Made by a program: the position numbers and the translations under genes. A DNA stretch of 64,000 bases from the NCBI RefSeq assembly GCF_900156105.1, contig NZ_FTMS01000002.1:1-64000 (forward strand), written 5' to 3'. The notes under the pieces were generated by a model, which was not told the DNA's origin, searched no databases, and was given only the letters and a program-made list of their open reading frames with translations. This document shows, piece by piece, positions 1,215 to 7,223 of this stretch (its first letter is position 1; each line of letters begins with the position of its first letter). Origin of the DNA: Alkalispirochaeta americana (GTDB lineage: Bacteria > Spirochaetota > Spirochaetia > DSM-27196 > Alkalispirochaetaceae).

Positions 1215-1243
1215 AAGATATCACGCCCTCCAGAGAGTGTCAA
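1215..1243 (-). promoter_or_regulatory. sigma-70-type promoter for tRNA-Leu(GAG)
   Basis: TTGACA (1243-1238), 17-bp spacer, TATCTT (1220-1215). The predicted start near 1208 is about nine bases before the tRNA. The TGA stop codon of the upstream peptidase gene (1242-1240) is part of the -35 hexamer. Confidence 0.8.
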
Positions 1244-3084
1244 GGAGTTCCGGCGCATCCCCGTTTATTTTTGCTGTCCGGGCTGTCTTCGTCGAAAAGA
1301 GTGGCTTCCAGGAGATCCAGTTGCTGCGAAAGCAGGTCCAGGGCCAGCTGAATCGGCTCCGGTTGTGCCATATCTACCCCTGCGGCGTTGAGGGAGTCCA
1401 GGGGAAAGCGGGATCCCCCCGAGCGCAGGAACCGGAAATAGTCATCCCGTTCGCCGGGGCCTCCCTCAAGAACTCTTCGGGAGAGGGTTATTGCTGCCGA
1501 AATCCCTGTGGCGTATTTGTATACATAGAAAGAGCGGTAGAAGTGGGGAATCCTCAGCCCTTCCAGATCAAGCAAGTCAGGGATTTCCAGGGTATCGCCA
1601 AAATAGGCCAGGAGAAGATCCCGGTAGGTCTGGCGAAACCAGTCAACTGTGAGGGCTTTTCCCCCCTCCACGTGGTCGTGGACCAGTTTTTCGTACTCGG
1701 CGAACATGGTCTGGCGAAAGAGCGTGGCCACAATATCATCGACGTGCTTGCTGATGAGATAAGCCCGCATGGAGCGGCTCTGTTCCTGCCCCATGAGATG
1801 GTGCACCAAGAGTTGCTCGTTGAAGGTGCTGGCCACTTCAGCCTCGAAAATCGTGTACTGGTAGTGCTGAAAGGGATTGTTGCGTACGGAATACCAGGAA
1901 TGCATGCTGTGACCCGCTTCGTGGGTCAAGGTGAACATATCCCGCAGGGTGTCATCCTTGTAGTTCAGAAGGATATAGGGATCGCCCCGGTAGCTGCCCG
2001 CTGAGAAGGCTCCGGACCGCTTTCCCTTGTTCTCGTAGCGGTCAACCCACCCTCCCAGGAGTCCTCCCCGGAGGGTAGTGACGTACTCCTCTCCGAGGGG
2101 GGCCAGAGAGGCCAGGACCGTTTCAACAGCTTTCTCGTAGGGATTGTTGACCGTGATAGCCGGAACCAGGGCAACGCGCGTGTCCCAGATCGCAGGGTCT
2201 TTCAGGTGAAGAGCCCGCTTTCTGATTCGGTAATAGCGGTGCAGCAGGGGAAGGTTTTTCCGTACCACCGCCAGGAGATTCTCGTAGACCCTGGAGGGAA
2301 CATCGTCAGGAAAGAGTCGGGCTGCCAGGGCTGAAGGGAATTTCCGCACCCGGGCCCGGTAGACATCGAGGTTGACACTGCCGGCATACAGTGCGGCCAA
2401 GGTGTTCTTGTGTTGATCAAAGGAGCGGTAAAACTGGTGGAAGGCTCGTTCCCGCACCGACCGGTCGGGATGCTCCAGAAGGCTGCCAAAACTGGATTGT
2501 GTCAGGCTCCTGGGGCCTTCCGGGGTTTCGACCTCACCGAAATCGAGATCTACATCAAGAAGGGCGCTGAAAGCTTTGGAAGCGGTCTGGTTTGCCTCCT
2601 GCTGCATCGCCAGGATACGTTCCTCTCCGGGAGTGAGGGTGTGAGGCTTGTAGCGTAGCACCCGATCCAGAGTAATACGGAACTCTTCCAGTCGGGGGTC
2701 TGCCAGGAGTTCTTCCATTCTGGAGTCCGGGATCTGCTGGATCTCGGGTGCAAAAAAACTTGTCGCTGCATCAAGGCGGGACGCTGTTTGGGTATATCTG
2801 CTCAGACGGTCCTGGTTCTCGCTGTTTCCTGCATCTTCGGAGTGGCGGAGCATGGCGTAGTAGCCCAGCCGCTCCTCGGTTTCCTCAATTCGGGTTTGTA
2901 ACTGGAGCCAGGCCAGGAGGGTGTCGGCCGATTCTGCGAGCTTGCCCGGGTAGGTCTGAACTTCGGATTCCAGGCTCGAAAGACGGCACAGGTCTTCTTC
3001 CCATTGTTCTTCCTTCTGGTACAGTGACCCCAAATCCCATTGATGCTCACGGGGGATATCGTCCCGGTTCGGTACAGTAGTCAT
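1240..3084 (-). CDS. pepF: oligoendopeptidase F-type zinc metallopeptidase (M3 family)
   Basis: 614 residues from ATG 3084 (N-terminus MTTVPNRDDIPREHQWDL). Cytosolic peptidase that cleaves short oligopeptides, finishing protein turnover. The zinc motif HEAGH lies at residues 388-392, followed about 25 residues later by FEAEVASTFNE, which would supply the third ligand; length and the N-terminal WDLGSLY segment fit PepF. The frame stays open upstream to 3201, but that would overlap rdgB and add a non-conserved low-complexity stretch, so 3084 was preferred although no strong Shine-Dalgarno is seen. It lies 76 bp downstream of rdgB and probably belongs to the same transcript. Its stop codon forms part of the next tRNA promoter. 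Confidence 0.92.
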   Translation of the reverse strand: MTTVPNRDDIPREHQWDLGSLYQKEEQWEEDLCRLSSLESEVQTYPGKLAESADTLLAWLQLQTRIEETEERLGYYAMLRHSEDAGNSENQDRLSRYTQTASRLDAATSFFAPEIQQIPDSRMEELLADPRLEEFRITLDRVLRYKPHTLTPGEERILAMQQEANQTASKAFSALLDVDLDFGEVETPEGPRSLTQSSFGSLLEHPDRSVRERAFHQFYRSFDQHKNTLAALYAGSVNLDVYRARVRKFPSALAARLFPDDVPSRVYENLLAVVRKNLPLLHRYYRIRKRALHLKDPAIWDTRVALVPAITVNNPYEKAVETVLASLAPLGEEYVTTLRGGLLGGWVDRYENKGKRSGAFSAGSYRGDPYILLNYKDDTLRDMFTLTHEAGHSMHSWYSVRNNPFQHYQYTIFEAEVASTFNEQLLVHHLMGQEQSRSMRAYLISKHVDDIVATLFRQTMFAEYEKLVHDHVEGGKALTVDWFRQTYRDLLLAYFGDTLEIPDLLDLEGLRIPHFYRSFYVYKYATGISAAITLSRRVLEGGPGERDDYFRFLRSGGSRFPLDSLNAAGVDMAQPEPIQLALDLLSQQLDLLEATLFDEDSPDSKNKRGCAGTP

Positions 3085-3160: not shown

Positions 3161-3862
3161 TTATTTACCGGAGACGCTGATCCAGTCTGCTGCCCGGGCA
3201 AGTGCTGCCAGGGCTTTGGCCCGGTGAGAAATCTGGTCTTTTTCGCTCTGGGAAATCTCGGCCACCGTCTCGCCCCGATGAGGCAACAGGAAGACCGGGT
3301 CGTAGCCGAATCCCGTTTTCCCGTCCCGGGGGATCTTCACAATTTCTCCGTGCCATGTTTCCTGAATCTGGAGATAGCGATCATCCTCATAGAGGAGGAC
3401 AGCGTTGCAGACGTAATGGGCGCCCCGATCTTGATGATCCTCCAGTTCCCGAAGGAGCAGGGCATTTCTGCCGGTATCATCCAGGGGAGGGGCGTCAGGG
3501 GTGTTCCCGTAACGGGCAGAGTAGATGCCGGGCCGGTTGTCCAGGGCATGGACGCAGATCCCGGAGTCATCGGCAAGAACTGGCGGTACCTGGGATCCGC
3601 AGAGGGCGTGCAGCTTCTCTTTCACTGTTTCAAGAGAGGCGTCCAGAGACGTTCCGGGAAGAAGCTCGCCACGAATCAGCGCAGCGAGCCCCCGGGCTTT
3701 CAGAAGAGCGTTGGCAGCGAAGGTATCTCCATCCTCGACCACGTCAAAGGAAAATCCGAGATCGCAGGGTTGAAGAACGGTGACTGTCGCCCCGAGGTGT
3801 TTCAAAATCCCATCTATTTCCCGGCGCTTGTGCTCGTTGTTTGAGGCAAGAAGAATATGCAT
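3161..3862 (-). CDS. rdgB: XTP/dITP pyrophosphatase (RdgB/Ham1 family)
   Basis: 233 residues. Hydrolyses non-canonical purine triphosphates (dITP, XTP) to the monophosphates, keeping deaminated bases out of DNA and RNA. Family motifs: N-terminal LLASNNEHKRRE, the substrate loop LADDSG at about 96-101 followed by RPGIYSARYG, then FGYDPVFLLP and SEKDQISHRAKA. It is about 30 residues longer than usual because of an insertion near residues 63-93 ahead of the LADDSG loop. It starts nine bases after the stop of the sigma-like gene, so co-transcription from the upstream sigma-54-type promoter is likely. Confidence 0.95.
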   Translation of the reverse strand: MHILLASNNEHKRREIDGILKHLGATVTVLQPCDLGFSFDVVEDGDTFAANALLKARGLAALIRGELLPGTSLDASLETVKEKLHALCGSQVPPVLADDSGICVHALDNRPGIYSARYGNTPDAPPLDDTGRNALLLRELEDHQDRGAHYVCNAVLLYEDDRYLQIQETWHGEIVKIPRDGKTGFGYDPVFLLPHRGETVAEISQSEKDQISHRAKALAALARAADWISVSGK

Positions 3863-3871
3863 TGTCCGATG

Positions 3872-4726
3872 CTACTGTGTTGCCAGGGATGATGCAAGGC
3901 GTTTGCTAAGGTTGTGGAGAGAGCTGTCCACTGTTCCCTTGGGAACCCCCAAAAGAAGAGCAACTTCCTTGTTTGAGAGGTGAATATTTTGCTTTTTCAA
4001 TCTCTGGATATACAAGAGCCAGAGTTTCCGGTGGTGATTGCTTCGCCGTTTCAGTTTCTCCCGGATAGGGGGGTAGAACTCTTCCTGCAACTCCCGCTCG
4101 AAGTGCAGCATGGCCGAGTAATGTTTGTCCCGGCGTTCCTGAAAAATTGTTCTTCGCTGGGCCCGATCGGCCCGATGGTGGCGGCAGTATTCTCCTATGG
4201 CAGTCATCCAGGACAAGGGGAGATCAAAGATGTGGGAAAAGCTCTGGCAGTCCTGGAGAGAGAGGAGGGGGACGTTCTTGCAAAAGAGATAGAGCAGTTG
4301 TTTTTTCAAGGCCTCCTCGGTTCCTGCTCCCTGAAGACGAATGATTTCCGGTCGGTGCGTGCCATAGTGAATGGTTTGGTCCATCTCGCTGACAAGTTCA
4401 GGAATCGAAGAGACGCTTCCGGAGCTCTCCGAAAGGTATACATGGCAGTTCCTGTGATCAATTTTCTTTCGCATGTACTCCCGGCTGCTGTGGTAGAGGG
4501 TCGTCGCCAGGTACCCCTCGAAGGATGCGCCCTGATCCTGGTAGGTTTCTGCCATCTTTACCAGCCGGGGATAGAAATCGGCGATGATCTCTTCCATCTC
4601 TTCCGTGTCCAGACGATGCCGTTTTCCCAGGACTCTCCTCATGAACTTCAGGGCCTCCGCTACAAACCGGTCCCAGGATATGGTCTGGCTCTGGTAACCT
4701 CTGTAGTATTGATCCAGTGATTTCAT
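3872..4726 (-). CDS. divergent sigma-70-like factor (sigma2-like and sigma4-like regions)
   Basis: 284 residues, excellent Shine-Dalgarno (AAAGGAGG) before ATG 4726. Residues about 40-90 resemble sigma region 2: EEMEEIIADFYPRL, then GASFEGYLATTLYHSSREYM. The C-terminus is a helix-turn-helix like sigma region 4.2: LSNKEVALLLGVPKGTVDSS then LHNLSKRL. About 140 poorly recognisable residues with many His/Arg/Tyr separate the two halves, much more than in ordinary ECF sigma factors. Whether it binds core RNA polymerase or acts as a DNA-binding regulator cannot be decided from sequence. It heads a unit with rdgB and pepF and has a near-consensus sigma-54 promoter immediately upstream. No anti-sigma gene is adjacent. 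Confidence 0.6.
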   Translation of the reverse strand: MKSLDQYYRGYQSQTISWDRFVAEALKFMRRVLGKRHRLDTEEMEEIIADFYPRLVKMAETYQDQGASFEGYLATTLYHSSREYMRKKIDHRNCHVYLSESSGSVSSIPELVSEMDQTIHYGTHRPEIIRLQGAGTEEALKKQLLYLFCKNVPLLSLQDCQSFSHIFDLPLSWMTAIGEYCRHHRADRAQRRTIFQERRDKHYSAMLHFERELQEEFYPPIREKLKRRSNHHRKLWLLYIQRLKKQNIHLSNKEVALLLGVPKGTVDSSLHNLSKRLASSLATQ

Positions 4727-4749
4727 CTATATCCTCCTTTATAGAGGAT

Positions 4750-4767
4750 ATGCAAAAATCATGCCAA
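4750..4767 (-). promoter_or_regulatory. sigma-54 (RpoN) promoter upstream of the sigma-like gene
   Basis: Minus-strand TTGGCATGATTTTTGCAT. GG and GC are exactly 10 bp apart, and only the C-to-T change in TGGCAC departs from the -24/-12 consensus. The predicted start near 4741 leaves a leader of about 15 nt that holds the strong Shine-Dalgarno of the gene starting at 4726. The upstream activator site is not identified. Confidence 0.7.
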
Positions 4768-4852: not shown

Positions 4853-5845
4853 TCAAGCGATCCCCAGCAGGGACTGCCTGAGGCGGGGAAGAAACTGGTT
4901 CAGGGGTTCTGCAACAAAGGCACCAGAGGCCTTTTGGTGTCCGCCGCCCCCAAAGGAAGCGGCCAGGGCACCCATATCGGTTGAGTCGGTGGCGCGGAAA
5001 CTGATCGCACAGCCCTTTGGTTTTTCTTTTACCAGGACAACAACCCGGACCCCTTCTACAGCCAGGAGGAGACGATAGAGGGCATCGGAGTCGCGGTGTC
5101 GACCGAATTCCTTTTCATCGCCTGCTGTCTGGTATGTGAGCAGAACCGATCCCTCCAGAAGACGTTCGGACCTTTGGAGAAGCCGGGCAATGAGCTGACG
5201 GCTCTCCCAGGAGCGGCCCGATGAGAGAAAGCGATCGGTCCCCTGGGGTGATGCGCCCCTTTGTGCCAGTTTTGCCGCCGTGGTAAAGGCAATGTGCTGG
5301 TGGGGTGCCAGAAACCGGAAAAAGCCCGTATCGGTGACGAGGCCCAGAAAGAGCCACTCCGCTTCCTCCCGGGTTATTTCAAGGCCAAGGCCCTGAATGA
5401 GGGCGGTGGCGAGAATTGTTGCGGCCGGAACCTCGGGGAGGATGAAATGCACTCCCTGAAGTCGTTCTCCGCTGGCGTGGTGATCCACAACCGCCAGAGG
5501 CAAATTGAGGATCTGTTCTGCCATGGATCCGAGCCGGTCTGCGCTGGAGCAGTCAACGATGATGGCCGCCTCCGGCACCAGATCAGAAGATGCCGTGGCC
5601 CGGGGCGGGGATTCAGGCCCCGGCAAGAAATAGTGCTCAAAGGGAGTTATCTCGTGCCGCTCGAAGGGGCCTGCATTGACAAGAAGGACCTCCTTGCCCA
5701 AGCGTCTCAAGGCGCTTCCCAAGGCAAGCTGGGTTCCCAGGCAGTCGGCGTCGGGTTCTTTGTGTCCTGCAATCACAAAAGAGGAATGCCGAAGGAGAAA
5801 GTCTATTAACTCCTTCGGTACCTCGAGAAGGGTGTCCTGTGGCAT
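4853..5845 (-). CDS. nrnA: DHH/DHHA1 phosphoesterase, NrnA-like nanoRNase/pAp phosphatase
   Basis: 330 residues; ATG 5845 follows AGGAG at good spacing. The DHH domain shows GHKEPDADCLG (about 27-37), IVDCSS, VDHHAS and VTDTGFFRF; the DHHA1 domain ends with GGGGHQKASGAF. These are the metal-binding and substrate-binding motifs of NrnA-type enzymes, which degrade two- to five-nucleotide RNAs and dephosphorylate pAp in the cytosol. A cyclic-dinucleotide (GdpP-type) role is less likely because the membrane, PAS and GGDEF parts are missing. It starts 15 bp after the small secreted-protein gene, at the end of the argF run. Confidence 0.88.
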   Translation of the reverse strand: MPQDTLLEVPKELIDFLLRHSSFVIAGHKEPDADCLGTQLALGSALRRLGKEVLLVNAGPFERHEITPFEHYFLPGPESPPRATASSDLVPEAAIIVDCSSADRLGSMAEQILNLPLAVVDHHASGERLQGVHFILPEVPAATILATALIQGLGLEITREEAEWLFLGLVTDTGFFRFLAPHQHIAFTTAAKLAQRGASPQGTDRFLSSGRSWESRQLIARLLQRSERLLEGSVLLTYQTAGDEKEFGRHRDSDALYRLLLAVEGVRVVVLVKEKPKGCAISFRATDSTDMGALAASFGGGGHQKASGAFVAEPLNQFLPRLRQSLLGIA

Positions 5846-5860: not shown

Positions 5861-6274
5861 TCAGTAGACTATACGAAACTCGTCGCTCTCAAAGGCGTCG
5901 CGGGGATCCTGACTGCTGGGCAGGGCTCCCCACGTTCTGTGAGTGCGACTGGATTGAACAACGAGACGAAGGTGCGAGACTTCACCGTTCCGGTAAAATA
6001 CCGTGAGATAGGGTGCGCTGGGATGCGATGTATAGATTATCTCGGCCTTGCCCGCTGCCTCGGTGAACCACCGGCCGGGCATATAGACTACACCCGGATA
6101 GAGGTCCGAACGACTGTAGATGACCTTGTAGCCGAGCCTGTGGGGATATACTCGCTGAACCTGGACGGTCATGGCCAGTAAAGAAGAATCGGCTCCTCCT
6201 TGATCCTGGGCGAAAGCCGGAACTGCCAAGAGAAGAAAGAACGAAGAAACTGCCAACGCCTTGATTGTTCTCAT
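5861..6274 (-). CDS. small exported protein of unknown function
   Basis: 137 residues from ATG 6274. N-terminal signal peptide: MRTIK, then a hydrophobic core, with likely cleavage after AFA before QDQGG. The mature part (about 115 residues) is rich in Tyr/Arg beta-strand-like stretches (VQVQRVYPHRLGYKVIY, APYLTVFYRNGEVSHLRLVV), with no cysteines and no lipobox. The family was not recognised. It sits 13 bp after argF and 15 bp before nrnA, so it is probably co-transcribed with them. An upstream in-frame start at 6310 would overlap argF and spoil the signal peptide. Confidence 0.75.
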   Translation of the reverse strand: MRTIKALAVSSFFLLLAVPAFAQDQGGADSSLLAMTVQVQRVYPHRLGYKVIYSRSDLYPGVVYMPGRWFTEAAGKAEIIYTSHPSAPYLTVFYRNGEVSHLRLVVQSSRTHRTWGALPSSQDPRDAFESDEFRIVY

Positions 6275-6287
6275 AGTAAATATAGTA

Positions 6288-7223
6288 CTACGCGAGTCCC
6301 AGGGAAGCAAGCATCACCGCTTTGATTGTGTGTTTTCGGTTTTCTGCCTGATCCCATACCCGTGAGGTGGGCCCGTCAATCACCGAAGGGGTCATCTCGT
6401 TTCCCCGCACTGCCGGGAGACAGTGGAGGAATATTGCCTTCGGTGCCCGGGCCATCACGTGATCGGTTACCTGAAACGGAGAGAGCAGCCCCGTTCGTTC
6501 TGCTTCCTGGCCCTCTTCACCCATGGATACCCACACGTCGGTGTAGATTACCTCCGCCTCGGGAGGGAGGGACTGGAGATCGTGGTGAACGGTGACGGTG
6601 CCGGGATAGTCCTGGCGGGCTGCCACTGTTGCCAGCAGGTCCGGGTCCGGAGCAAGTTCTGGCGGGCAGATTATGTGGTGGTGCAATCCCATGGCAACGG
6701 CTCCTACCAGGAGACTGTTGCTCACGTTGTTTCTGCCGTCGCCGCAATAAACTGAGGTGACCCCTTCGAGCGCGCCGGTGTGCTCTTCTATGGTAAGAAG
6801 ATCGGCAAGAGCCTGGGTTGGGTGCCACTGGTCAGTGAGCCCGTTGATCACAGGGACCCCGGCATGGCAAGCAAGTTTTTCTGCGGTTCTGTGGGAGAAT
6901 CCGCGAAACTCGATAATATCGAACATTCGCCCCAGGACACGGGCGGTATCCTCCACGGTTTCCTTGGCTCCCAGTTGGATGTCTGCACTGGAAAGAAAAA
7001 CCGGATGGCCTCCTTCCTCGCCAAAGGCAGTCTCGAAAGCTGCCCGGGTGCGGGTGGAACGTTTCTCGAAAAGCATTGCCAGTGTTTGCCCCCGAAAGCG
7101 CTGGGGGCGTTCCGCCGTGGCCTGTTCCTGCTTGACCCGGTGAGAGAGATCCAGGAGATAGCGGATCTCCTCGGGGGTGCAGTCTATAAGCGCCAGAAGA
7201 GATTTTCCTTCAAGAGATTTCAC
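6288..7223 (-). CDS. argF: ornithine carbamoyltransferase
   Basis: 311 residues. Condenses carbamoyl phosphate and ornithine to citrulline in arginine biosynthesis (cytosolic trimer). Carbamoyl-phosphate loop STRTR at 56-60; HPTQALADLL near 130; HCLPAVRGNE near 270 supplies the catalytic Cys and the ornithine-side signature. The start is GTG at 7223, chosen for the AAAGGAGG site 6 bp upstream and the MKSLEGKSLL N-terminus. The enzyme could in principle run in the catabolic direction, but no arginine deiminase genes are nearby. It lies 84 bp downstream of lon; the gap carries a tandem duplication rather than a terminator. Confidence 0.95.
   Translation of the reverse strand: MKSLEGKSLLALIDCTPEEIRYLLDLSHRVKQEQATAERPQRFRGQTLAMLFEKRSTRTRAAFETAFGEEGGHPVFLSSADIQLGAKETVEDTARVLGRMFDIIEFRGFSHRTAEKLACHAGVPVINGLTDQWHPTQALADLLTIEEHTGALEGVTSVYCGDGRNNVSNSLLVGAVAMGLHHHIICPPELAPDPDLLATVAARQDYPGTVTVHHDLQSLPPEAEVIYTDVWVSMGEEGQEAERTGLLSPFQVTDHVMARAPKAIFLHCLPAVRGNEMTPSVIDGPTSRVWDQAENRKHTIKAVMLASLGLA

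Follow-up and report, generated by a model that had tools for sequence, protein, structure and literature searches.

A probable sigma-54 promoter conserved across the Spirochaetia ahead of a sigma70-like gene, rdgB and pepF

The first 64,000 nucleotides of contig NZ_FTMS01000002.1 of Alkalispirochaeta americana (the whole stretch of DNA that was analysed, hereafter the window) carry a gene for a sigma70-like protein, which is preceded by a putative -24/-12 element and followed by rdgB and pepF. This arrangement raises the question whether sigma-54 controls the synthesis of another sigma factor at this locus, and whether such a cascade is the one known from Borrelia. The spirochaete sigma-54 regulon outside Borrelia and Leptospira is little described in the literature searched. 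The model we favor, and consider likely, is a sigma-54-dependent operon of the sigma-like gene, rdgB and pepF, which runs parallel to an RpoS-like branch. The region upstream of the sigma-like gene contains the following elements.

4751 to 4767, minus strand: probable -24/-12 sigma-54 promoter TTGGCATGATTTTTGCA, 0 mismatches to YTGGCAYGNNNNTTGCW, conserved upstream of 94 of 131 homologues
4739 to 4741, minus strand: predicted transcription start, inferred by counting from the GC at 4753-4752 and unmeasured
4733 to 4737, minus strand: Shine-Dalgarno (SD) sequence GGAGG, assigned by sequence
4729 to 4751, minus strand: perfect 8-bp inverted repeat ATATCCTC/GAGGATAT, the loop of which holds the predicted start and which covers the SD sequence

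The earlier note on this DNA had claimed a -24/-12 match one base off the consensus, with GG and GC 10 bp apart and a predicted start just ahead of a Shine-Dalgarno sequence. The spacing held, as GG-N10-GC is exact in TTGGCATGATTTTTGCA (minus strand, 4767-4751) and lies within TGGCAYR-N4-TTGC, a criterion satisfied by the window site. The deviating base did not hold in this form: the site has no mismatch to YTGGCAYGNNNNTTGCW, and one (C to T) only in comparison with the stricter TGGCACG form. The position of the start was borne out at the level of sequence, with the predicted start (approx. 4741-4739) directly preceding AAAGGAGG and the SD sequence following at 4737-4733. From the end of the -24/-12 site to the ATG of the sigma-like ORF at 4726 there are 24 nt. 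As part of the whole operon model, the site is likely a true sigma-54 promoter; RpoN dependence and the start are inferred in the absence of expression data.

The inverted repeat region folds with a z value of -2.48 and could possibly hide the SD sequence in read-through RNA. The SD-masking hairpin is clear in the window and some relatives. Its role as a conserved insulator against read-through was rejected (p = 0.12, Wilcoxon, 90 loci; 19 of the 90 with p <= 0.05).

The 64-kb window contains a single site without mismatches to YTGGCAYGNNNNTTGCW, at 4767-4751, and the entire 3.3-Mb genome contains six, the window site included. When up to one mismatch was allowed, 45 sites were obtained genome-wide compared with 14 for the reversed control pattern. 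Of these 45, approx. eight probably represent attC-like repeats and not promoters, and the sigma-54 regulon of this genome was sampled from the best sites only. The same genome encodes RpoN and eight clear sigma-54 activators of the AAA+ type, and sigma-54 sites also precede gltB, amtB and a gene for a solute-binding protein. As a side observation, repeated CTGTCATGGTTTTTGCT...AGCAAAAACCACGCC hairpins lie approx. 400-1450 bp apart beside small antitoxin-like genes (C9:23, 850, 1643 and 2415; C37:918 and 2369; C2:272565 and 272994; loci L015, L016, L025, L026, L028 and L029). They resemble the attC sites of a chromosomal integron and are a source of false -24/-12 matches.

A referee might object that the -24/-12 match arose by chance and that the gene is served by a different promoter or by transcription reading through from the DHH gene, its immediate upstream neighbor on the same strand in 82 of 131 loci; no experiment on transcription contradicts this view. 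Comparison of the homologues argues strongly against it. In the 250 nt upstream of each of 131 non-redundant homologues from the class Spirochaetia, a site with at most two mismatches and intact GG and GC was present in 94 cases, 26 of them perfect, compared with 2, 1 and 0.8 for the reverse complement, the reversed and the shuffled pattern, respectively. Because conservation in 94 of 131 loci stands against approx. one to two in the controls, the site is above chance. The 131 loci are related by descent and hence not independent; the identities of the encoded proteins to the window protein go down to about 15-20%. Moreover, the site is located mostly 20-100 nt ahead of the start codon, and it is conserved in gene neighborhoods both with and without the DHH gene. 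We therefore regard the chance-match explanation as very unlikely. Among 25 further Spirochaetia loci, mainly from Treponema-type families and including one repeat of an earlier locus, 18 carried the site.

About one fifth of the loci had no recognizable site (more than 2.5 mismatches), including members of families f19 and f22, though rpoN is present there. A link between promoter loss and a diverged RpoN was considered and rejected, as no clean pattern appeared across the loci. A separate observation concerns two genomes of one genus (G069 and G180, loci L333 and L334), in which TTTGCAC or TTAGCAC takes the place of TTGGCAC in the -24 element. The RpoN DNA-binding domain of this genus scored lower than usual, and a joint change with the -24 element is possible.

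Further upstream, 52 of 129 regions (approx. 40%) contain a direct repeat TGTAAM-N4-TGTAAM that fits the pattern at 11 or all 12 of its positions. Its period of 10 is specific: shuffled sequences gave 0.4 instances, and all other periods gave 1-4. A repeat of period 11, as in Pho boxes, was rejected for lack of any excess. The distances between repeat and promoter cluster at about 30, 41-46, 51-55, 62-64, 80 and 91 bp, that is in steps of approx. 10.5 bp or about one helical turn, which places the TGTAAM repeat in helical phase with the sigma-54 promoter. Five of eight genomes searched contained the exact repeat once each, at the sigma-like locus; of the other three, one had a single copy elsewhere and two had none. 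With one mismatch allowed, the repeat was still unique in genome G077, had two more sites in G052 and was frequent in G094. No clear copy was seen upstream of the gene in the window or in Alkalispirochaeta alkalica. Examples of the repeat are found at loci L215-L217, L219 and L220. We infer, without binding data, that the repeat is the probable gating site of an unidentified regulator in many lineages. Activators with a non-Fis DNA-binding domain able to read a direct repeat were not retained as candidates, as nearly all of the C-termini that were read looked Fis-like by eye (L069 and L250 could not be judged).

The gene neighbors on the minus strand are as follows.

4853 to 5845, minus strand: DHH/DHHA1 phosphoesterase (NrnA-like; PF01368, PF02272), the conserved upstream neighbor
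3161 to 3862, minus strand: rdgB/HAM1, non-canonical purine NTP pyrophosphatase (PF01725, 7.8e-52), 9 bp past the sigma-like ORF
1240 to 3084, minus strand: pepF, oligoendopeptidase F (TIGR00181, 630 bits, cut-off 490)

In tblastn searches with the neighbors from the window, 101 of the 131 loci had rdgB and 66 had pepF downstream on the same strand, while 82 had the DHH gene upstream on it, so that the proposed pairing with rdgB and pepF held. On the minus strand, no terminator-like site was detected from the end of the sigma-like gene to pepF. A sigma70-type promoter-like match precedes pepF (3119-3091), and separate transcription of pepF is therefore possible. Taken together, the sigma-like gene, rdgB and pepF likely constitute one sigma-54-dependent operon conserved in the class Spirochaetia, the synteny being shown and both co-transcription and transcription by RpoN being inferred. 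The DHH/DHHA1 gene is inferred, again without expression data, to lie outside the sigma-54 transcript. We found no description of a sigma-like-rdgB-pepF operon in the literature searched. Two observations were made on the neighbors themselves. RdgB of the window (3161-3862) is longer than the Pfam model (233 aa compared with 185 positions) and seems to contain an insertion at about residues 50-85. The gene at 5861-6310, which is conserved upstream of the DHH gene in 40 of 131 loci, encodes a 149-aa protein that has a stretch resembling a signal peptide close to its N-terminus and no Pfam match.

The product of the first gene was examined by profile searches and structure prediction, which gave the following assignments.

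3872 to 4726, minus strand: sigma70-family (ECF-like) protein of 284 aa (Pfam and TIGR matches)
4415 to 4726, minus strand: sigma2-like domain, residues 1-104 (AlphaFold2 model, structure alignment)
4352 to 4432, minus strand: disordered linker, residues 99-125 (pLDDT under 50)
3992 to 4216, minus strand: long helical hairpin, residues 171-245 (AlphaFold2 model)
3878 to 3973, minus strand: C-terminal HTH, residues 252-283, region 4.2-like (LLGVPKGTVDSSL; sequence match)

The 284-aa ORF matched Pfam Sigma70_r2 just above the cut-off (24.2 bits, cut-off 24) and TIGR02937 with 4e-11 (42.8 bits, cut-off 42.9), and TIGR02937 was matched independently by 28 of 29 family members. The full AlphaFold2 model reached a pLDDT of 84.5 and a pTM of 0.47, with values mostly between 85 and 97 in the sigma2-like part up to residue 90. 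Residues 1-104 aligned with region 2 of sigmaE (4lup; Z 9.5, 92 aligned residues, rmsd 3.5 Å) and also with ShbA, RpoE and gp55, so that the model predicts a sigma2 domain at the N-terminus. Conservation within the family is highest in the C-terminal HTH, which scored 17.7 bits and thus under the cut-off with Pfam Sigma70_r4_2, and gave a profile match to region 4 of SigW with an E value of 0.02. The C-terminal half modeled alone had a pLDDT of 90.5. No sigma4 structure was seen among its PDB matches, which comprised long helices only, the helical hairpin dominating the list; the assignment of the HTH to region 4.2 therefore rests on sequence only. Of the claim that sigma2-like and sigma4-like ends enclose a long middle, the sigma2 part held by predicted fold and the long middle held as well, while the sigma4-like end is backed by sequence matches and not by the predicted structure.

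These results leave room for a rival explanation, in which the sigma-54 promoter is genuine but the gene product has ceased to be a sigma factor. Its sigma2-like part might still touch core polymerase, and the hairpin and HTH would form an ordinary DNA- or RNA polymerase-binding regulator, perhaps of its own operon. In favor of this view are the sub-threshold Pfam match of region 4, the far greater length, compared with ECF factors, of the linker and hairpin that connect sigma2 to the HTH, the lack of a sigma4 match of the C-terminal model, and the direct repeat, which is nearly single-copy in several genomes as the site of an autoregulator could be. Against it, all but one of the 29 members match the sigma70-ECF model independently, the sigma2 fold match spans the whole domain, and the same HTH is kept in lineages without the direct repeat. 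We consider this rival unlikely. As part of the operon model, the product is likely a divergent sigma70-family (ECF-like) factor, for which binding to core polymerase, initiation and the regulon are inferred.

A search with the single protein revealed relatives in 45 of 61 genomes, and with a model built from 29 members, 245 of the 297 class genomes and 109 of the 116 genera proved to contain the family; rpoN was present in 293 of the 297. With this model, among the 297 class genomes, no member was found in the genomes of family f27 (0.9-1.9 Mb, Borreliaceae-sized), which we take, from their size and clustering, to be Borreliaceae, or in genome G117 (1.1 Mb, T. pallidum-sized). There is usually one candidate sigma factor of this family per genome, and the closest named relative is that of A. 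alkalica (strain DSM 8900) with 66% identity. An alignment-based profile scan of genome contigs yielded 35 loci, the named matches being nearly all spirochaetes; a first scan of the same contigs with a single protein had found nothing, and a search of plasmids gave no match to the family. Candidate homologues in other classes of the phylum were discarded, as the matches were weak and none of ten fetched loci had an rdgB neighbor or the site; they are probably other ECF factors. For Treponema, TDE0070, TDE0937 and TDE1346 are listed as sigma70-family genes (PMC2965109).

In Borrelia burgdorferi, sigma-54 drives rpoS in the Rrp2-RpoN-RpoS pathway (PMC11109971), and the window gene might accordingly be the rpoS of this cascade. 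Synteny and sequence refute this interpretation. The window gene fails the criterion of a Borrelia-type RpoS, a group-2 sigma next to flgJ, which is met by another gene of the same genome: a separate RpoS/RpoD-like group-2 sigma of 281 aa (C3:206660; locus L003, C3:205118-208134), located after two genes that we take, from our reading of the sequence, to be flgG and flgJ, and equipped with a perfect sigma-54 site. Borreliaceae-sized genomes have rpoS with flgJ in the same arrangement and with a sigma-54 site, and the RpoS-like protein is approx. 39% identical to their RpoS. The absence of any detected member of the window family from these genomes likewise speaks against the rpoS interpretation, which is all but excluded. 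The parallel to Borrelia drawn in the earlier note is thus real, but it concerns the RpoS-like gene on contig C3 with its own sigma-54 promoter.

Orthologues of the RpoS-like gene carry a sigma-54 site with at most one mismatch in 29 of 30 loci. Since this gene is separate and has its own conserved promoter, two parallel branches from sigma-54 to a sigma gene look ancestral; conservation of the promoter is shown, and transcription by RpoN is inferred. The conserved site, together with the same arrangement in Borreliaceae-sized genomes, points to two sigma genes fed by sigma-54, of which the window gene is the less known, and suggests that RpoN control of the RpoS-like gene is older than Borrelia.

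In the favored operon model, RpoN-RNA polymerase would wait at the -24/-12 site for an AAA+ enhancer-binding protein to open the promoter. In many lineages, an unidentified regulator that binds the phased 10-bp direct repeat would probably help in this gating. RdgB and PepF would be made from the same transcript as the sigma-like factor, which would then guide RNA polymerase to another group of genes. Among the recurrent neighbors (DHH phosphoesterase, rdgB and pepF) there is no anti-sigma gene, with the reservation that not every flanking gene was annotated; the factor would be controlled via its own synthesis and not by an adjacent anti-sigma factor. This branch would run in parallel to the sigma-54-driven RpoS-like gene. 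The model is based on the conserved -24/-12 site, the synteny of the operon, the distribution of the family, the predicted sigma2 fold and the conservation of the promoter ahead of the RpoS-like gene, all of which were obtained here, while the activator and the regulon, like RpoN transcription, co-transcription and sigma activity, remain inferences. The initial reading of a sigma-54 promoter, a sigma70-like product with a long middle and a link to rdgB and pepF is supported across the class, RpoN dependence and sigma activity being inferred.

A bolder reading is tentative, and taken as a whole we lean slightly against it. It would combine three elements: a second sigma-54-to-sigma branch that is ancestral to the Spirochaetia and has disappeared from Borreliaceae and from the 1.1-Mb T. 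pallidum-sized genome; a sigma factor of unusual structure, in which a long helical hairpin separates sigma2 from the HTH that reads the DNA; and a dedicated regulator with a near-unique phased direct-repeat site. The regulon, as yet unidentified, would act in step with nucleotide-pool cleaning. The finding offers a concrete and widely conserved second tier, with one promoter, one operon and usually one candidate sigma factor per genome. The favored model predicts which lineages have lost the window-gene branch, and the upstream element is a possible bait for fishing out the activator.

Several known systems resemble this arrangement. Classical ECF factors of the TIGR02937 type such as E. coli RpoE and SigW share the predicted sigma2 fold and, at the level of sequence only, the region-4.2-like HTH motif. 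In contrast to these, the window protein has a linker of approx. 38 residues, two short helices and a 75-residue helical hairpin ahead of the HTH, its family lacks an anti-sigma gene among the recurrent neighbors, and its gene is inferred to be transcribed by sigma-54 and not by its own product. The Rrp2-RpoN-RpoS pathway is the closest system within the phylum and shares a sigma gene under sigma-54 and a conserved -24/-12 site (PMC11109971); RpoS, however, is a group-2 sigma adjoining flgJ with its own counterpart in this genome, whereas the window family belongs to a separate, ECF-like lineage, of which no member was detected in Borreliaceae-sized genomes. The closest working parallel is HrpL of Pseudomonas syringae and Erwinia, where RpoN together with HrpR/HrpS activates hrpL and HrpL in turn the type III secretion genes (PMC8657755). 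In both cases a sigma-54 promoter and an activator site would drive a small alternative sigma70-family gene in a two-step cascade. HrpL belongs to another phylum and has unrelated neighbors, and the HrpS site, at -138/-125, is an inverted repeat, while the spirochaete element is a phased direct repeat closer to the promoter. Compared with HrpL, the window family has the long linker and helical hairpin and an operon with rdgB and pepF; from HrpL and RpoN-RpoS alike it is set apart by sequence lineage, architecture and operon partners.
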